Assembly: GCF_001580045.1 (NCBI RefSeq)
Contig: NZ_LSZP01000042.1
Coordinates: 1 to 64,000, forward strand
DNA: 64,000 nucleotides
From: Cephaloticoccus capnophilus
GTDB taxonomy: Bacteria > Verrucomicrobiota > Verrucomicrobiia > Opitutales > Opitutaceae
Reading direction: 5' to 3'
Shown here: piece after piece, positions 7,693 through 18,411 of the stretch
Layout of the letters: every line of letters begins with the position of its first letter
Position numbering within the stretch: position 1 is the stretch's first letter
Position numbers and translations under genes: made by a program
The notes under the pieces: generated by a model
Databases searched by the model: none
Seen by the model: only the letters and a program-made list of their open reading frames with translations
What the model was told of the DNA's origin: nothing

Positions 7693-8904
7693 TCAGCGCA
7701 GCAGGGCATTTGCTTGGAGCGCGGCACCGAGCGCAGCAGGGCTGATGGTCGTTGAGCGGCCTGTCTCGGTGTCGAGAATGCATAGACGGCTGGTTTGCCG
7801 GTCGCGCGCCGTGTAAATCAGGTGCCGCCCGTCGGCCAGCCAGCAGGGCTCGATCGCATCGAAGGGCGCATTCGATACTTGGCGGGCGGGCTCGCCGCTT
7901 TTTGAGAAATCGTAGGTGGCGATTTGGAAGCCACTGCCAATCCGCATCGTGAAGGCGATTTTATTGGCATCGGCTCGGCTCCAGTCCGGCTCCGAGCAAT
8001 AACGGCTAATGTTGGTCGGTACGCGCCGCGCTGCACCACCGGCAACCGACATCACGTAAAGCTGCGGGCCGCCCGCCGAGTCGGAGGTGTAGATGATCCG
8101 AGAGCCATCGGGCGAAAAGCAGGGCGAGGCCTCGACGGCATCCGTCCGTGTGAGACGGCGAATTTGGCGGCCTTGGGCGTTGCCCACGTAAATCTCGGCG
8201 TTGCCCTCGCCGCTCAAGACCATCGCGACTTGCCGCCCATCGGGGCTGAAGCGCGCCCCGCTGTTGGTGCCTTTAAAGCTCACGAAACTCGTGCGCTGCG
8301 TGCTGCGCAGGTCGATTTGGAAAATGTCGGGAAAGCCGGAGCGAAAGTAGCTCGTGTAAATGATGCGCGAGCCATCGGGCGACCAGCGCGGGGTGAGCGA
8401 CTGGGAGTTGTCACGCGTAAGCTGGCGCAGCTCGCCGAAAAACAGGTCGGAGATGTAAACCTCCTTACGCCCCGTGCGCTCGGCGACAAAGGTGAGCTTC
8501 GAAGCGAAGAACCCGCGCAGCCCCACTTCGTTCGTTCGCTCAACGGCGACATCGGCGGCGCGCAAGAGCGCGTGCCGGAGCGTGTCACCCGAGAGCGTCT
8601 GCGAGTGGACGAGCCCGCCCGAAGCATTGGCGATCTCAACGCGCACCTGGGCGGCCCCCGCCTGCGCAAAACGAATGTCGTAACGATGGCCGCTGCCCAC
8701 CACCCGATAGCGGCCATGCACGCCAAAGGCCTGCTGCGCGAGCGCGCCCAGTTCCGAAGTCGTCGACGACACCCGCACCGGCACCACCTGCACGTCCGAA
8801 GCGATGACGACATCGCCCACGTTACGCTGCGCCTGCACGACCAAGGGCAGCACGCCAAGTAGCGTAACGAGCGAAAAGAGGAAGCGAGAGAGTGAAAGAA
8901 TCAT
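7693..8904 (-). CDS. tolB: TolB-like periplasmic beta-propeller protein
   Basis: Periplasmic protein of the Tol-Pal envelope system, which keeps the outer membrane attached during division. The 403 residues start with a signal peptide (LSRFLFSLVTLLGVLPLVVQA). An N-terminal alpha/beta domain is followed by repeated TolB propeller blades, visible as SPDGSRIIYTS (twice), FSPDGRQVAMVLS and ADGRHLIYTA. Length and domain order match TolB. No tolQRA or pal gene adjoins, so the symbol rests on the protein alone; a general WD40-like propeller protein is the alternative. It is divergent from the Mrp gene at 9048. Confidence 0.85.
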   Translation of the reverse strand: MILSLSRFLFSLVTLLGVLPLVVQAQRNVGDVVIASDVQVVPVRVSSTTSELGALAQQAFGVHGRYRVVGSGHRYDIRFAQAGAAQVRVEIANASGGLVHSQTLSGDTLRHALLRAADVAVERTNEVGLRGFFASKLTFVAERTGRKEVYISDLFFGELRQLTRDNSQSLTPRWSPDGSRIIYTSYFRSGFPDIFQIDLRSTQRTSFVSFKGTNSGARFSPDGRQVAMVLSGEGNAEIYVGNAQGRQIRRLTRTDAVEASPCFSPDGSRIIYTSDSAGGPQLYVMSVAGGAARRVPTNISRYCSEPDWSRADANKIAFTMRIGSGFQIATYDFSKSGEPARQVSNAPFDAIEPCWLADGRHLIYTARDRQTSRLCILDTETGRSTTISPAALGAALQANALLR

Positions 8905-9047
8905 GAGGCGAAAAACTTAGAAAAACGAAGAAGAAGGGCGGCCGCTTTGGTTTTGCCCAACGGCAAACCAGAAAGGCACGCGAAGCCCATTTCTATTTGC
9001 AGCGCACAGAACCATAACAACTTAATTCCCGACGCATTTTTACCGCC

Positions 9048-10178
9048 GTGACCTCTGACGACATCAAAGCCCAGCTCGCCCAAGTAAAATACCCCGGCTT
9101 TAGCCGCGACATCGTCTCCTTCGGACTCGTGCGCTCGGCAGCCTTTTTGGAGGAAAGCGGCACGGCTAAAGTCTCGCTCGCGCTCACGACCAGCGACCCG
9201 CAAATGCCCTTGCAAATCAAGACCGCGGTCGAGGCGCAGCTTCGCGGCCTGCCCGGCGTGCGCGAAGTCATCGTCGACCTCGCCGTCACTTCGGTAAAGC
9301 CCCCCGTAACGGGCGGCGCAAGCGGCACCGCAGGAGTCGGCGGCAACCTCGCGGGCGGCGCCGCGCTCCCCGAAGGCATGGCGCACGCGGTCGCAATCGC
9401 CTCGGGCAAAGGCGGAGTGGGCAAAAGCACCTTCGCGGTGAACCTAGCCTGTGCCGCCGCCCAAGTCATCGCCGCGAGCCAAGGCCGCCTGTGGGGCCGC
9501 CAACGCAGCCCACGAGTTGGCTTGATGGATTGCGATATTTACGGGCCCAGCGTCCCGCTGATGATGGGCCTCAGCGGGCGCCCCGAAATCGAGGGCGACG
9601 GCGCAGGCGCGATGATTATCCCGATGGTACACCACGGCGTGAAGGTCATGAGCATGGGCTTCCTAGTAGACGATAATACGCCCGTCATCTGGCGCGGGCC
9701 GATGATCATGAAGACCGTCCAGCAGTTCATCCAAAACGTAAAGTGGGGCGAGCTCGATCTCCTCCTCATCGACCTGCCCCCCGGCACCGGCGACGCGCAA
9801 CTCTCACTCGTGCAAACCATCCCACTCGACGGCGCGATCCTCGTCACCACGCCCCAAGCCGCCGCCACCCAAGTTGCGCGCAAAGGCGGACTCATGTTTC
9901 AAAAGGTCAACGTACCGCTCCTCGGTGTCGCCGAAAACATGAGCGACTTCGTCGACTCCTCCGGCCAACATCACGCGCTCTTTGGTAGCGGCGGTGGAGC
10001 CGCGACCGCCGAGCAACTCGGCACCGTGCTCTTGGGAAAAGTCCCGCTGCTCTCCGCAATCCGTGAAGGCGGCGACCTCGGCCAACCCATCGTCGTTCGC
10101 GAACCGCAGAGCGAAACTGCACAACTCTTCCGCGACATGGCCGAGGGCCTCCTCAAAGGGCTAAAAAAACGGTCATAA
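9048..10178 (+). CDS. Mrp/NBP35-type P-loop ATPase (Fe-S carrier family)
   Basis: Protein of 376 residues from a GTG start at 9048. An N-terminal DUF59/MIP18-like domain (about residues 1-90) is joined by a Gly/Ala linker to a deviant-Walker ATPase with ASGKGGVGKST near residue 117, and DLLLIDLPPGTGDAQLS further on. These define Mrp/ApbC proteins, cytosolic ATPases that hold and deliver Fe-S clusters. The odd feature is the region after AENMSDFV: where Mrp proteins normally carry CxxC for the bridging cluster, this one has DSSGQ. It may therefore bind clusters differently or have another cargo. The gene stands alone, divergent from tolB. Confidence 0.9.
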   Translation: MTSDDIKAQLAQVKYPGFSRDIVSFGLVRSAAFLEESGTAKVSLALTTSDPQMPLQIKTAVEAQLRGLPGVREVIVDLAVTSVKPPVTGGASGTAGVGGNLAGGAALPEGMAHAVAIASGKGGVGKSTFAVNLACAAAQVIAASQGRLWGRQRSPRVGLMDCDIYGPSVPLMMGLSGRPEIEGDGAGAMIIPMVHHGVKVMSMGFLVDDNTPVIWRGPMIMKTVQQFIQNVKWGELDLLLIDLPPGTGDAQLSLVQTIPLDGAILVTTPQAAATQVARKGGLMFQKVNVPLLGVAENMSDFVDSSGQHHALFGSGGGAATAEQLGTVLLGKVPLLSAIREGGDLGQPIVVREPQSETAQLFRDMAEGLLKGLKKRS

Positions 10179-10442
10179 AAGGGGACCGTTTATAACACGT
10201 CGCGGGAGCCAGCACACGGCTGTGATTTCGCCCGTATGGCGGTTCACCCAGCCTACAGCTTCCGGAGGTAATTCCTGCAAAAACTATCCGCAGGGCCCCA
10301 CCCTCTTCGAGCATAAATCCGCGCCCAAAACAGGAGCAGCGATCTTATTAGCGGCTTTGTTGTGACGCACGCAGGACATTTCGGAGCGTTGACAGCCCCC
10401 AGTCCGCCACTCGGAATCGCGACCCGACCTGACCTGTTTGGA

Positions 10443-10676
10443 ATGACACGCACCACCTCCACCACGACACCCAGCAAAACGACCGATGCCCCCTCTCGCG
10501 ATTTTGTTAAAAAATCCAGCCTCTACCAAGAGTTTCTCGCCGAGCGCGAAGAAATCTTAAAACACAAATGGCTCGAATCTGAACGCCTCGGCTACGACAT
10601 CGGCTTCGAGCACGCGCTGCTCGACTGGATTCGCAAACACCGCGAAAGCTGGCGCGCCACCCGCCGAAAAGGATGA
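10443..10676 (+). CDS. Small basic helical protein, unknown function
   Basis: A 77-residue protein from ATG 10443. A Thr/Ser-rich start leads into a helical stretch SSLYQEFLAEREEILKHKW and FEHALLDWIRKHRESW, ending in a basic tail. Similar small proteins may occur in related genomes, but no domain was recognised. The helical core is compositionally protein-like, which supports it as a real gene. An extension to ATG 10362 is possible but has no such signal. Confidence 0.55.
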   Translation: MTRTTSTTTPSKTTDAPSRDFVKKSSLYQEFLAEREEILKHKWLESERLGYDIGFEHALLDWIRKHRESWRATRRKG

Positions 10677-11120
10677 CGTCGCGTGGAAGCAGAGTGCTTC
10701 TAGCGTGACTCGGCTCGCGCACAAGTCGCTGCACAGTCAGAAGTAAAGAAGCCGCGCAGACGGTCGCATTAAGTGCGTTTAATGACTACTTTTGCATAGT
10801 CACTGCATACGGCGTGAGCATGAAACCTCCGCTGATAAATACCAACCCGACTTGCTAAAAAACTGCGATAGTTTTGCTCTGATATAGCAAGCAGCGGAAT
10901 AAAAAGACATCGCAGCTAAAACATGCGCCAAGATAGTCATTATATTACTCGCTGGGAAAATCCCAACAAAGCGTGCTAATTGACCTCCCGCCCAATAGAG
11001 TATCCTTTCAGTTCTAGGAAAATCATTTACCTAGCCCACAAAAGGAGCACCTAGGGAGAATTACGGCTGTGGGTAGAGCCTTTGCCTGCCTATCCATCAA
11101 GGACATTGCCGGTTTAGGGC
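10677..11120. other. Intergenic region without recognised genes
   Basis: About 440 bases, more A/T-rich than the flanks. A weak hairpin (TGACTA with TAGTCA, around 10782-10801) is present. No coding signal, tRNA or known RNA motif was recognised. An unannotated small RNA cannot be excluded. Confidence 0.4.
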
Positions 11121-11152
11121 GCAAAAAAGCCAGACCGTTAACAGGTCTGGCT
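11121..11152 (-). terminator. Rho-independent terminator of rpmG
   Basis: On the minus strand AGCCAGACC pairs with GGTCTGGCT around a 7-nt loop (11128-11152) and is followed by six T residues. It lies 31 bases past the rpmG stop. The 16 bases CTGGCTTTTTTGCGCC also occur in the terminator at 64-99. Confidence 0.85.
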
Positions 11153-11183
11153 GGGAGGGAGTAGGAATTAGCCGCGCGCCCGC

Positions 11184-11348
11184 TTACTTAATCTCTTTGT
11201 GGAGAGTGTGCCGCTTGAGGTGCGGGTTGTATTTCTTTTTCTCGATGCGCTCGGTCACGGTCTTTTTGTTGCGCGTAGAGAGGTAGCGGGACACGGGTTT
11301 ACCTTCTTTGCGGGCTTCCGTGCATTCGAGGATGATCTGGTCTTGCAT
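11184..11348 (-). CDS. rpmG: 50S ribosomal protein L33
   Basis: Large-subunit protein of 54 residues beginning [18 protein letters not shown]. The motifs [20 protein letters not shown] and [15 protein letters not shown] are characteristic of L33. The frame is open to 11459, but ATG 11348 gives the standard length. The usual N-terminal zinc-ribbon cysteines are absent except one (LECTE), so this is the zinc-independent (C-minus) form. A terminator follows. It lies downstream of the diadenylate cyclase gene on the same strand. Confidence 0.93.
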
Positions 11349-11455
11349 GTATTTGAAAGGGTTTGGGAGACGGGACAGCAAAGCCCACGGCTCGGGCACG
11401 GCAACCGTAAAGTTTCCGGTAGCTTTGCGAGCCCATATAAGTCGGTCGAAGGCCG

Positions 11456-12802
11456 TCACTGACTCCGCCGATCCATAAGCGGGAGCATCACGCCACGCCG
11501 GAAGAGCGTCACTTGACCGGAGCTAGAAACGACGATGGCGATGCACTGCGCTTTTAGGCTAATCGCCGCCGCCGCCGCGTGCCGACTCCCCAAGCCACCC
11601 GGCAATGAGTGCTCGGGATCGACCGCTTGAATGAGGCTGCCTGCGGACTCGAGCACGCCATCGCCACCAATCAAGAAGGCTCCGTCAATTGAGGAAAACT
11701 CCTTCACCGTCTCATCCATAAAGGGGTTCAGGATGTTGCGATCTTCTTCCTTATAGCCGTAGAAGGGATTGAGGACGAGGGGTTTGGAGAGTTTTTCGAC
11801 TTTATTGATATCGCCCACGACGAAGAGCGAGCCAACCGGCTTGCCCTCGCGGCCTTCAATCGCGAGTTCGGTCGCGACGGCGATTACACGCTCCAATACC
11901 TCGGGTTTTACATCGACCGGCAGCAGGTCGTTGCGCCCCGTGAGCAGCGTCTGAAACTCGCGCTCGATTTCGACCACGCTCAGCGTGTCAAACTGGTTGC
12001 TCCCCGCCACGCCGCCTATGCAGCAGATGCGGTCAGTGAAGTTGAGCGCACCGTGAGTCAGGGCCATCAGGATCGCGCTGCGCAGCTGCGACATGCGCTG
12101 GTTGGAGAAGGCGCGAACCTGGAGGGTGACATTAAAGTCTTCTTTATCCTCGCTCGCGGGCTGCTCCACCGCGTTTCGCGACACGAGGATCGTCTTGATT
12201 TTCGAGCGCAAGATGCCCGCCGGAATCCCGCCAATAAAGGTATCGCCAAAAACCATAATTGCGCTGCATGCCGCGCCGCTGGCGACACGCTGCGCCTCGC
12301 GAAAAAGGAGCCGGTTGGTCCGGTTTTGCTGTGCTTGGACCGGGCGAATGCCATCGAACCCACCCACAAGCCGCTCGTAGAGCGTGTCGAGGTCGGGTGC
12401 GTTCGCGAGGTTTTGCACGAGTTCGGGCTCACGCACTTGGCGCGCGATCGAGGCGAGAACTTGCAGGTAGTTGGGCGCGCGGTCGCCCGCCAGCAGCATG
12501 AAGATGAGGTTCACACGCTCCTCGTCGTTTGTCCCCTCGTGGCGGATACCGGTGCGGCTGCGGCCGATTGCGAGGATGTAGCGGCGCTTCATTTTTACGC
12601 GGACGTGAGGCAGCGACACACCGTGGCCGAGATAGGTGGTCATCGTGCTCTCGCGCGCGAGTAGGCCGCGCAAGAGCGACTCGGGCTTTAGATCGTCAAA
12701 CTTCTCTGCGCAAACGCTCAACAGCTCCTCAAGCGCGCCGCGCAAGGTCGAGCTGTGCAGGTCGATGATGCGGCTGCGCGCGATGATTTTTTCCAGCCGC
12801 AT
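11456..12802 (-). CDS. PTS EIIA domain fused to a diadenylate cyclase domain
   Basis: Protein of 448 residues with an unusual architecture. Residues 1-150 resemble a PtsN-type EIIA domain, with the phospho-acceptor context [12 protein letters not shown] (His about 66) and [19 protein letters not shown]. Residues of roughly 155-290 ([19 protein letters not shown] and LVSRNA) look like an alpha/beta domain similar to the C-terminal part of pyruvate kinase. The C-terminal part resembles a DAC (DisA_N) domain: [11 protein letters not shown] near 370 and [14 protein letters not shown] near 405, matching the DGA and RHR motifs that bind ATP, with RHA replacing RHR. The expected role is c-di-AMP synthesis gated by phosphorylation or sugar/nitrogen state; this is inference. 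No transmembrane segment is seen, unlike CdaA. Confidence 0.8.
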
Positions 12803-12876
12803 AATAGTTCGTTATCCTCGTACAGGGGAATCCGTTTAGCCCGTTCTGGCTCTGGTGCGCACAGCTAACGACGCGC

Positions 12877-13245
12877 TCACTTCTCCCACTCTAGCGCGCC
12901 CTTCTTTAGCTCGTAAAAGAGCCCGAGGACGAGCACGCCGATGAAAAACATCATGGGTGCGAAAATCGTGATGTGGTTCGCCAAAAACTCGCGGTAGACG
13001 AAGCACAGCGGGATGAGAAACACGACCTCGATATCGAAGAGGATAAAGAGCATCACGGTGACGTAAAATTTTACCGAAAAGCGCGAGTGCGGCGCGCCCT
13101 CGGAGGGGACACCGCATTCGTAGGCCGAGTCCTTAATCTTGTTCTTCGCAGCGCGCTGACCGAGCAGGTGAGTCGCCGCGATGAGCAGCGCAGCGATTGC
13201 CGCTGCCAAGGCGGCTTGGATGAAAAACGGCAGATACGGGGTCAT
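12877..13245 (-). CDS. nuoA: NADH-quinone oxidoreductase subunit A
   Basis: Small membrane subunit of respiratory complex I, 122 residues, with three transmembrane segments (FFIQAALAAAIAALLIAAT, FYVTVMLFILFDIEVVFLI, IFAPMMFFIGVLVLGLFYE). The loop motif SAYECGVPSEG and the FDIEVVFL segment are diagnostic of NuoA/NdhC. ATG 13245 gives the normal length; the longer frame overlaps the neighbouring gene. No nuoB or other complex I gene follows, which is unusual because nuoA normally leads the operon. Confidence 0.93.
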   Translation of the reverse strand: MTPYLPFFIQAALAAAIAALLIAATHLLGQRAAKNKIKDSAYECGVPSEGAPHSRFSVKFYVTVMLFILFDIEVVFLIPLCFVYREFLANHITIFAPMMFFIGVLVLGLFYELKKGALEWEK

Positions 13246-13288
13246 CGTGCCGACAAAATCGCCCGCGCAACCGCCACTGACAAGCGGT

Positions 13289-14383
13289 TTATTCTGAGAG
13301 CTTAATGATAGTCGCCGACGCCGTTTCGGTCGAGCCCACGCCGAGCATTTCGGCAAACTCGAGTGTGCGAATCTCCTCCGAAACCGGCGCAAAGCCCGAG
13401 AGCTTCCGCCACTGATTAATCCGCTCCAGCATCAGCGAGTCGAGCATCACGGGATCGCGCGAGAGCCACAAGCGCGGCTCCGATACGCTGTAAAGCGAGT
13501 TAAAGAAAGGCCCACCGATGAATTGGTAGTGCTGGAGGCTTACAAGCGTGAATGCCCAAGTCTCGCGCAACTCGGGTATGGCACTCATCTCGGCAACGGC
13601 CGCGGGCGCATTGGCCGGGCTCCGAAAGAAGCGCGCCGTGTTCGAGGCATTCCAGAGCGTCGCATTTACCAGTGCGCCGTTTACGCCGAGCGTCGCGTGG
13701 TCAGTGTAGACAGGCAGGTTTATCCAAAAATCCGCATCGAGAAACAGCGGCGTAGCGAGAAAGCTCTTGCGGTCTTCGTCAGGCGAGGTGTCGGCACTCA
13801 CTCCCCGCGTCTGCGATTCGGCGAAAATCGGGTCAAAACGCTGCGGCAGCGGGCTATCGTAAAACCACACCGGATCGTAGAAACGGCCCGACTCCAGCAC
13901 GTAAACCTTGTGCCCGGGAAAGGCCGACTGACCGGTCGCCAGCGAGGGCAAGTAGCCCGTCATCCGCAGCCGTAGTTGGTTTAGCCCTACTAAAAAAATA
14001 TCCTCCTTTGCAAAACCGCGCCGCTCAAGCGCAGCGATTACTGCGCGCACGAGCGGGACAGGCGTCGCCATGCCCGGGCCCGAGTCGGCGTAGATTTTTA
14101 GGCCCACTTTCTTCTTCTCGCCCGGGACGAGTGCCCAGCCGCTCTGTCCCTCGAAGTCGTGAATCACCCGCTCCACTGCGCGGTCATAGCTCGCTTGACT
14201 AAAGTCGCCAAGCGCGACCTCCCAAATCGGCGCGGGCCCGGCGGCAGGCACAGCCTGTGTTTGCGCTGCGCTTGCATCCGCGGCCTGCTCGGCTGTGCGA
14301 GTATCGGGAACTTCTTGCGCCCAAAGCCCACAGAGCCCACAAGCGGAACTAAGTAAAAACGTGGCAAAAAGCAGTAAACGCAT
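13289..14383 (-). CDS. Exported DUF362-type protein
   Basis: Protein of 364 residues from ATG 14383 with a signal peptide (RLLLFATFLLSSACGLCGLW, then AQE). The body carries KKVGLKIYADSGPG, LVRAVIAALERRGF and DADFWINLPVYTDHATLGV, which fits the DUF362 family, proteins with a LarA/uroporphyrin-like fold of unknown role. Many DUF362 proteins also carry ferredoxin domains; this one does not. Its stop lies 43 bases before the nuoA start on the same strand, so the two may be co-transcribed. Confidence 0.7.
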   Translation of the reverse strand: MRLLLFATFLLSSACGLCGLWAQEVPDTRTAEQAADASAAQTQAVPAAGPAPIWEVALGDFSQASYDRAVERVIHDFEGQSGWALVPGEKKKVGLKIYADSGPGMATPVPLVRAVIAALERRGFAKEDIFLVGLNQLRLRMTGYLPSLATGQSAFPGHKVYVLESGRFYDPVWFYDSPLPQRFDPIFAESQTRGVSADTSPDEDRKSFLATPLFLDADFWINLPVYTDHATLGVNGALVNATLWNASNTARFFRSPANAPAAVAEMSAIPELRETWAFTLVSLQHYQFIGGPFFNSLYSVSEPRLWLSRDPVMLDSLMLERINQWRKLSGFAPVSEEIRTLEFAEMLGVGSTETASATIIKLSE

Positions 14384-14555
14384 GGGCAAGAAGAAGAGCG
14401 GCAAAGCGGGCGAGATGTTTCCTCGTTTGAGCGGAAGGGCGCAACCCTTGACAGCCCAAAGTCGCCCTTGAAAGTGCATTCTCCTAAGACCGCGCCGAAC
14501 TCAGCTCCGCTCTCCTGCCTTTCCGATTCGCCGCAGCCGCCCACTCTCCCGCTCA

Positions 14556-16529
14556 ATGCCCGTCATCAAGCCAAGCTGCGTGCGCGACCTCAAGTTGCGC
14601 GTCCCAATCGCCGACGTCGTCTCCCGCGTGGTGACACTGCGCGGCACAGGCGGCCGCCGGATGAAGGGCCTATGCCCCTTCCACAATGAGAAGACGCCCT
14701 CCTTCCACGTCGATACGGATAAGGGCTTTTATAAGTGCTTCGGCTGCGGCCAAGCGGGCGACATCATCAGCTTTGTCCGCGAGACCGAGCAGCTCGGCTT
14801 TAGCGAAGCGGTCGAGACGATTGGCCAACGTTTCGGCATCGAAATCGAATACGAAGAAGGCAGCGGCGGCCCCAGCCGCGAAGAACGCTCGCTGCGCAGC
14901 GAACTCTTTGAGCTCCACGAACTCGCCGCCGATCACTACCACCAAGCCTTTCGTGTGAGTAGCCCGCTCGGCGACTTCATGCGCCACTACTGGAGCGACT
15001 CACGACACTTCGACCTCGCGATTGCCGAAGAGTTTAGAATCGGCGCGGCAGGCGCAGACGGGGCCGACACACTCGCCGCACTCCTCCTCAAAAAACGCTT
15101 CAGCGAAGACGCCCTCCGCCACTGCGGCCTTTTCTTTATAAGAGACGGCACACCGATTTCGCCCGCCACGCTGCGCCCACGGTTTCGCGGACGACTCATG
15201 ATTCCCATCCGCGACCACCAAGGCCGCGTCGTCGCCTTCACCGCGCGCCAGACCGCGCTCACCCCGAGCGACGACCCCGCGCGCGACGCCAAATACACCA
15301 ACTCCCCCGAAACCCCCATCTTCACCAAGGGCAACCTCCTCTTTAATCTCGACCGCGCCCGCAGCGCTGTCGGCGAAGGCCGCCCCTTCGTCCTCGTCGA
15401 AGGACAACTCGACGCTATTCGCTGCTGGAGCATCGGGCTAAAAACCGCCGTCGCCCCGCAAGGCACCGCCATCACCGACACGCAACTCCGACTCCTGCGT
15501 CGCTACCACGCGCAAATCGAGTGCTTCTTCGACGGCGACAGTGCCGGGCAAAAGGCCGCGCTTCGCTTCCTGCCACTCGCGCTCCGCGCCGGACTCGAAG
15601 CCCGCTTCCTCGTCGCCCCCGATTCTGGCAACATCGGCGACAACAGCGCCGCGACCGCCAACACGCCTCCCCCACTCGACGACCCCGACTCGCTCTTCCT
15701 CGCCCAAGGACTCGCCGCTTACGACGCACTCCACCAAGGCTCGCTCTCGGCCATGCACTACGCCGCACGCGCCCTCCTCCCAGTGCCGACCCACGCGACC
15801 GCCGAAGAAAAATCCCGCGCGGCGCACGCGCTCATGGAGATAATCGCCAACGCAGAGTCCCAAGTCGCCCAAAGTGAATTCGTAGCCGAAGCCGCCGCCC
15901 ACCTCCGCATCGCACCGCACGCCATGCAGCGCGACTTTCACCGGCTTAAACTCCGGCGCGGACGCGGCACAGCGGCGCGAGCTGCACTAGGTGAGCGCGC
16001 CCCCAACCCCTTGTCCGCCGACACGCGACCAGCACTCGACGGCGAGCCCACGACTCGCCGCCAAGAAAAAGAGCCGAAGACTCCGCCCGAAGAACACTTG
16101 CTACTCGTCTGCCTGCACTTTGAGCAAATCGGCCCCGCCCTCGCTCAAACTCTCCCCCACGACTGGATCGACACCCGCCACACCGCCGGGGCACTCCTTA
16201 ACCGCTTCCTTGCCGAGTTTGAGCAAGCCAACTGGCCCGGTCGCGACCACCTAGACCCGCTCCTCGAAACCGACGCCGAGCGAGCACTCGTCACTACGCT
16301 CCTCTTCGACCCGCCCGCCTTTGAAGACCCGCACAAAATCGCCAGCGAAGCCCTGCGCCTCCTCCGCGCTCGCGCCCTAGAGCCACGCCTCCACCAAATC
16401 GCTCTTGATTTAGCTCGACACGATGCGGACAGTCCCGCCCCCCCAAATCTAGGGGCTCTCTTGCAAGAACAGTTAGAAATCAAACGCCAGCTCCTAAGGC
16501 CGCTCCTCCTCTCAACCGCTGCCGCCTGA
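14556..16529 (+). CDS. dnaG: DNA primase
   Basis: Primase that makes RNA primers at the replication fork; 657 residues. The N-terminal CHC2 zinc-binding domain shows C40-x2-H43 and C61-x2-C64 ([23 protein letters not shown]). The catalytic RNAP core and TOPRIM domain follow, with [10 protein letters not shown] near residue 280 and [12 protein letters not shown] near 325 carrying the acidic metal ligands. The C-terminal helicase-interacting region is poorly conserved, as usual. rpoD follows after 22 bases, the classic macromolecular-synthesis pairing. A TTGACA box lies about 105 bases upstream, but no good -10 box was found. Confidence 0.96.
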
Positions 16530-16551
16530 CTTCCCTTTTTCCCAAACACAC

Positions 16552-18411
16552 ATGCCTCGTAAGACCAAGTCCTCCAAGTCTGCCAAAGCCGCTGCTGCGA
16601 ACACCCACGCCGACGCCGTCGAGTCCGCTATCGAGACCGCCGAAGCCGCCGCCAGCACCGGCGCAGTAGCCAACTCCGCCGACCTCGCCGCCACCGGCAT
16701 CAACGAGAAAATCCGCCAGCTCATCCGCCTCTCCAAAGAGCAAGGCTATCTCACCTTCGACGACATCAACGAGGCACTCCCCGAGTCGGTCGAAAATCAG
16801 GAAGAGATCGATAACATCCTCTCGATTCTCCAGAACCTCGAAATCGAGATCCTCGAGCCCGACCAAGTCGAGGAATACAAACAACGCATGGAAGAGGCCG
16901 AGGAGGAGGAAAGCCGCTCCTCCCAAAACGACATCCTCGACGACCCCGTGCGCATGTACCTGAAGCAGATGGGCCAAGTCCCCCTGCTCACCCGCGAACA
17001 AGAAGTCGAAATCTCCAAACGCATCGAGACCGCCGAACTCAAAGCCCAAGAAGCCCTCTTCCAAGCCACCGTCATCGGCGCACACATCGCCAACCTCGGC
17101 CAACGCCTCATCAACCGCGAAGAACGCTTCGATCGCATCGTCATCGATAAAAAAATCGAAAGCCGCGAAGCCTACTTCAAAAACCTCCCCAAACTCGTCG
17201 AGGCCACCGAGAAAGCCGAAAAGGGCGTCGCTGCCGCGTGGGACGAGTACCTAAAAGCGCGCACTGATGCCGACCGCAAACGCATCCTCACCAAACTCCA
17301 CAAACGCGAAGCCCTGCTCCGCCCCTGTTTCGGCAAATTCTTCTTCAAGCTCAAAGTCTACGAAGAGTATTTAGAGCAACTCAGCCCCACTCTCGAAACC
17401 ATTGAGCTGCTCCTCGCCCAACTCGAACGCGCCAAAAAACCCAAGACCAAGAAAGACGCCGCGATCGACACCAAGGCCATTAAAGCCCAGCTAAAAGAAA
17501 TCGCCGCCGCCCAGCGCATCGAGCCCGAAGAACTCCTCAAAGTCATCGCGCAAACCCGCGTCCACGTCCGCGAAGCCCACCAAGCCAAGACAGAAATGGT
17601 CGAGGCCAACCTGCGCCTCGTCATCTCCATTGCCAAAAAATACACCAACCGCGGCCTCTCCTTCCTCGACCTCATCCAAGAAGGCAACATGGGCCTCATG
17701 AAAGCGGTGGAGAAATTCGAATACCGACGCGGCTACAAATTCTCCACCTACGCCACTTGGTGGATTCGCCAAGCCATCACCCGCTCCATCGCCGACCAAG
17801 CCCGCACCATCCGCATCCCGGTCCACATGATCGAGACCCTTAACAAGGTCATGCAGGTGCAAAAACAACTCCTCCAAGAATTCGGCCAAGAGCCCACCCC
17901 CGAGGAAGTCGCCGACGAGATGAACCTGCCCGTCGACCGCGTGCAGCAAATCATGAAGATGGCGCGCCAACCCATCTCGCTCCAATCCCCCGTAGGCGAT
18001 GGCGACGACACCAGCTTCGGCGACTTCATCGAAGACAAGTCCGCCGAAAACCCCTACGACATGACCGCCTTCTCGCTCCTGCGCGAAAAGATCGTCGACG
18101 TCCTCGACTCGCTCACCGAACGCGAACGCCGCGTCCTCTCCCTACGCTTCGGCCTCGCCGATGGCTACAGCCGCACCCTCGAAGAAGTCGGCAAACAATT
18201 CAAAGTCACCCGCGAACGCATCCGCCAAATCGAAGCCAAGGCACTGCGCAAAATGCGCCACCCCACCCGCATTCGCCAGCTCCACGGCTTCTTCAACGCC
18301 GAGCAAGTCGACAACGCCCAAAACCTCATGAAAGCCGCCGCCGAAGCCAAATCCTCCGGCGTCAGCCTTGGAACCGGCCTCAAGACCATCTCGCCCTTCT
18401 CACGCCGCTGA
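16552..18411 (+). CDS. rpoD: Primary sigma factor (sigma-70)
   Basis: Housekeeping sigma subunit of RNA polymerase, 619 residues. Region 1.1 is near residues 55-100 ([20 protein letters not shown]). Region 1.2 is [21 protein letters not shown] Lys/Ala-rich non-conserved insert follows. Region 2 contains [20 protein letters not shown] and [15 protein letters not shown] near 375-400, and region 4 has the helix-turn-helix [20 protein letters not shown] near 545. An Ala/Ser/Lys-rich N-terminal tail of about 40 residues precedes region 1.1. The gene follows dnaG. Confidence 0.97.

Follow-up and report, generated by a model that had tools for sequence, protein, structure and literature searches.

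Does a single protein of Cephaloticoccus capnophilus tie the synthesis of c-di-AMP to PTS phosphorylation? The question is raised by one gene in the window (the whole stretch of DNA that was analysed, 64,000 nucleotides in length), in which a sequence-only reading had recognised an EIIA-like domain with a phospho-acceptor His at about residue 66, a pyruvate-kinase-like middle part, and a diadenylate cyclase (DAC) domain carrying the motif DGA, but RHA rather than RHR. The gene is an uninterrupted ORF of 448 aa on the minus strand, with ATG as its start codon. The features discussed below are as follows:

11456..12802, minus strand: EIIA-DacZ_P-DAC fusion, putative diadenylate cyclase, 448 aa (ORF and Pfam)
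12371..12766, minus strand: PTS_EIIA_2 domain, residues 13-144 (Pfam; match to the PtsN fold 3urr, Z 20.5)
12605..12607, minus strand: codon of His66, predicted phospho-acceptor (alignment to the active-site His of PtsN; His in 119/121 members of the order)
11948..12325, minus strand: DacZ_P, probable sensor domain with a pyruvate kinase C-terminal fold, residues 160-285 (Pfam; fold matches)
11489..11863, minus strand: DAC diadenylate cyclase domain, residues 314-438 (Pfam; fold matches to CdaS, DisA and CdaA, Z 12-14)
11678..11686, minus strand: DGA active-site motif, residues 373-375 (D and G in 121/121, A in 118/121)
11576..11584, minus strand: RHA motif at the canonical RHR position, residues 407-409 (R and H in 121/121, A in 120/121)
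11184-11459 and 12877-13392, same strand as the cyclase gene: nuoA and rpmG (bL33), flanking it

Domain layout and genomic setting

Each of the three parts is recognised by Pfam: PTS_EIIA_2 (E 3.9e-18; 66.2 bits vs a cut-off of 27), DacZ_P (PF21755; E 7.9e-32, above the gathering cut-off) and DAC (PF02457; E 5.8e-16; 58.6 bits vs a cut-off of 27). The top NCBIfam match of the entire protein is archaeal DacZ (NF041371) and the second is PtsN; at 111 bits the DacZ match stays below the equivalog threshold of 430, so that the fusion is a relative of DacZ and, by that model, not an ortholog. In the PDB, the first part is matched in sequence by PtsN proteins and the last part, weakly, by CdaA-type cyclases. 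An AlphaFold2 model of the whole protein, built from 55 homologues, had a pLDDT of 74 and a low pTM of 0.45, and was used for the folds of the domains. Its EIIA end matches EIIA-Ntr (3urr) over 148 residues (Z 20.5, 2.0 A), and its DAC end matches 2fb5 (Z 14.0) and the DisA of M. tuberculosis (Z 13.8). When the DacZ_P region was folded separately (pLDDT 77, pTM 0.73), all 50 matches listed were pyruvate kinase C-terminal domains, the best with a Z of 13.3. Structure prediction, which had been proposed as the check, thus gives the EIIA-Ntr and DAC folds at the two ends and the pyruvate kinase C-domain in the middle; the acceptor lies exactly at residue 66, in GVSLPHVRV, where it aligns with the active-site PH of PtsN, and DGA and RHA stand within the DAC match. 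The three-domain reading of the protein is correct.

The setting of the gene is unusual but conserved. Its neighbours by Pfam are nuoA, rpmG, mrp and rpoD, accompanied by a dnaG-like ORF, and of 80 related loci (some ended by a contig edge) 78 contain nuoA and 63 contain rpmG. Between nuoA and the dnaG-like ORF lies a 396-aa ORF (13289-14479) without a Pfam match, which is present in 75 of these 80 loci. No PTS genes adjoin the fusion, and neither a c-di-AMP riboswitch nor any other Rfam element was found near the gene within positions 8000-17000.

The putative cyclase of an order

The distribution of the architecture was surveyed in 57 related genomes, the own genome included, and in a sample of 288 genomes from the phylum. 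The own genome has one DAC only; among the 57 a DAC is present in 52, and in none is there a second DAC above the cut-off. EIIA_2 and DAC lie within one ORF in 51 of the 52 DAC-positive relatives, the sole exception (G047) being an ORF broken by a contig end; in G007 the fusion gene contains an in-frame TAG. Conservation of the same ORF of about 450 aa throughout the order excludes chance, and misassembly is ruled out as the origin of the fusion because the identical ORF architecture recurs across tens of independent genomes.

In the phylum sample a DAC was found in 280 genomes and DacZ_P in 46, comprising 41 of the 43 Opitutales and five genomes elsewhere. For other Verrucomicrobiota, most of the DACs listed are CdaA-sized, at about 260-340 aa, and all 15 that were read from outside the order have DGA and RHR. 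Every one of the five DacZ_P genomes outside the order has a second DAC, which suggests that the DacZ_P-DAC supplements CdaA there, but replaces it within the Opitutales. In a tree of DACs, the fusions and haloarchaeal DacZ separate from CdaA with full support, on long branches. Exceptions inside the order are G264 and G216, which carry a second DAC. The survey that the sequence-only reading had called for therefore shows that the Opitutales as a rule have the fusion as their DAC, and hardly ever another one beside it.

Three further observations concern variants and origin. G216 encodes, besides the normal fusion, an extra DacZ_P-DAC protein that lacks EIIA and is about 300 aa long (L198, G216:C1:3445500-3449000). 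Phage records gave no DAC-like match, the matches there being to the EIIA part only, and in the plasmid records listed the matches were confined to haloarchaeal DacZ and to EIIAs of stand-alone or permease type; an origin by phage or other horizontal transfer was accordingly rejected.

Probable cyclase activity and the EIIA receiver

Conservation of the motifs was counted over 121 homologues of the Opitutales. The RHR expected of DACs is replaced by an RHA that is nearly invariant in the order. The altered motif had been named as a possible cause of missing c-di-AMP synthesis, but it does not argue for inactivity: GTRHH occurs in two plasmid-borne haloarchaeal proteins annotated as DacZ, and GTRHR in Verrucomicrobial CdaA, so the third residue varies between branches of DACs and RHA is no sign of decay. 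For the DacZ branch, the residue at this position does not look like a defining one. Haloferax volcanii DacZ has been shown to work as a diadenylate cyclase that depends on Mn (PMC6741144).

Evidence from outside the protein comes from the c-di-AMP riboswitch RF00379, which was detected in nine relatives. In eight of these no DAC besides the fusion was detected; the ninth, a genome of 50% completeness, yielded none at all. The genes next to eight riboswitch loci encode a KUP K+ transporter (1), TrkH (1), amino-acid-permease-type transporters (3), SPFH-domain proteins (2) and one unclear product, the K+ transporter genes lying downstream of the riboswitch. Such riboswitches are sensible only if c-di-AMP is made in the cell, which makes them the best indirect evidence for an active fusion. 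RF00379 was not detected in the own genome, where c-di-AMP would thus act via other receptors. The SPFH/Band_7 proteins downstream of the riboswitch in two Opitutaceae (L175, L180) are an unexpected target.

The riboswitches indirectly indicate that the fusion, as a putative cyclase, very probably makes c-di-AMP. It is hard to believe that its DAC domain is instead degenerate and makes none. Ligand binding is described as requiring the conserved RHR motif (PMC8573169), and the domain scores weakly against the general DAC model relative to CdaA, yet the near-invariance of RHA, the retained DGA, the RHH of annotated haloarchaeal DacZ and the presence of c-di-AMP riboswitches in genomes without another detected DAC all speak for a functional enzyme.

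In the EIIA domain, 119 of the 121 homologues retain His66 and 118 retain Arg50. The second catalytic His of EIIA (His120 of PtsN) is Tyr112 here, and Tyr in 115/121. This exchange may slow phosphotransfer. The same Tyr is found in stand-alone EIIAs of six genomes, the own genome among them, which makes it a lineage trait and not decay of the fusion copy; Tyr-type EIIAs would presumably accept phosphate without needing to pass it on. His occupies the position in the one EIIA that lies near EIIB and EIIC matches, in G014. In the locus concerned (L134, G014:C17:264390-268196), matches to HPr, EI and EIIA share one frame of 903 aa that adjoins EIIB and EIIC; the locus represents a rare transport PTS.

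These data bear on whether the EIIA domain has become a relic that no longer receives phosphate, with the cyclase regulated by DacZ_P alone. Replacement of the second catalytic His, the loss of His66 in two members and the 0.9 Mb relative G042, which retains the fusion with Arg50 changed and yielded no EI, HPr or HprK, would fit such a loss. The conservation of His66 and Arg50, an active-site loop conserved above the average of the EIIA domain (mean modal frequency 0.86 vs 0.67) and the same Tyr in stand-alone EIIAs of the family argue against it, and a vestigial receiver is improbable. His66 is likely to be phosphorylated. The natural variants at this residue, Tyr in L188 (G039) and Ser in L199 (G194), would be useful for probing the role of the EIIA domain.

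Potential donors of the phosphate are present. The PTS of the own genome consists of one EI, one HPr and one HprK, and its HPr has both phosphosites, GIHARPA (His15-type) and GKSIMGL (Ser46-type). It has two EIIA_2 domains: that of the fusion and that of a 160-aa protein adjoining a gyrA-like gene. PTS_EIIC and PTS_IIB, the two permease families searched, gave no match in the own genome, and among the 57 genomes PTS_EIIC was found in two and PTS_IIB in one. EI, HPr and HprK without PTS_EIIC and PTS_IIB is a pattern common to nearly all relatives. In Brucella, an incomplete, permease-less PTS with input from HprK serves as a regulatory phosphorelay (PMC2937029). With His66 conserved, EI, HPr and HprK encoded and EIIC and EIIB unmatched, a link of the cyclase to the PTS is plausible.

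Proposed mechanism and comparison with known systems

In the reading that we favour, a cytosolic DacZ-branch cyclase bears an EIIA-Ntr-like receiver, and the phosphorylation state of EIIA and a ligand of DacZ_P set the output and hence K+ and osmotic balance; on present evidence this is somewhat probable. Phosphate would pass from PEP to EI, to HPr and to His66 of the EIIA domain, while HprK, by phosphorylating the serine of HPr, would set the supply of HPr. Since EIIB and EIIC of the families searched are essentially missing, the phosphate on EIIA would be read rather than handed to a sugar. Two inputs would jointly determine the output of the DAC domain, namely whether EIIA is phosphorylated and a ligand, presumably a small metabolite, on the pyruvate-kinase-like DacZ_P; c-di-AMP would then act on K+ transport and osmotic balance. 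That phosphorylation of His66 controls catalysis, in either direction, is a fairly likely coupling. K+ uptake is controlled by EIIA-Ntr in E. coli and Rhizobium (PMC3665714), so both halves of the fusion point to the same physiology.

The same precedent, in which dephospho-PtsN binds TrkA or KdpD (PMC3665714), could be taken differently: the DAC would be active, and EIIA would serve mainly to dock it at proteins of K+ transport, with phosphorylation governing docking and not catalysis. The lost second His and the K+ transporters among the riboswitch targets of relatives are consistent with docking, but this EIIA never stands apart from the cyclase and forms one chain with it, a point in favour of intramolecular control. 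Docking as the main role is thus unlikely, and control of catalysis by the attached receiver is preferred.

If the favoured mechanism is true, it would join PTS-Ntr and c-di-AMP, each linked to potassium balance, and would account for the EI, HPr and HprK that the Opitutales have kept without the searched sugar permease families. A broader proposal, for which our confidence stops a little short of even, is that a whole order swapped the membrane-bound CdaA for a soluble cyclase under a permease-less PTS, by which the PEP/pyruvate state would act through c-di-AMP on K+, and that this is the first case of a c-di-AMP synthase that has a PTS phospho-domain in the same molecule. To our knowledge, the input signals of diadenylate cyclases are largely open. 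Here the receiver is physically attached and its phosphorylation chain is broadly known, which would open the signal input to direct tests on a handful of purified proteins.

The enzyme class itself is already known, since Pfam names DacZ_P as a probable sensor domain and the DacD class lists Opitutae proteins. DacZ_N-type domains were reportedly defined by Galperin in 2023 ('All DACs in a Row', J Bacteriol). Among open-licence papers, no description or test of an EIIA fused to a c-di-AMP synthase or to DisA_N was found. What is new here is the survey throughout the order, the permease-poor PTS, the link to riboswitches and the comparison of motifs.

The common DAC proteins had been given as DisA, CdaA and CdaS, none with EIIA; as a list of known DACs this is incomplete, as the DAC here belongs to the DacZ branch, and Opitutae proteins, including one of Lacunisphaera limnophila, are already placed in the class DacD (PMC6741144). 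The Opitutaceae genomes surveyed have the fusion as their only clear DAC (save for the second DAC of G264), and on grounds of taxonomy DacD is probably this fusion protein. DacZ (NF041371; Haloferax volcanii) shares with the fusion the branch of the DAC domain and the pyruvate-kinase-C-like domain before it, and two annotated DacZ proteins likewise depart from RHR in the third residue; however, DacZ is about 270 aa and has no EIIA. EIIA-Ntr (PtsN) shares the fold, the active-site Arg and His, and the company of EI, HPr and HprK without the searched permease families, whereas the EIIA of the fusion is attached to a cyclase and has Tyr for the second catalytic His. CdaA (DacA), which most other sampled Verrucomicrobiota likely have as their one DAC, shares the DAC fold and DGA, but has RHR, is about 290 aa and occupies a separate branch of the DAC tree.
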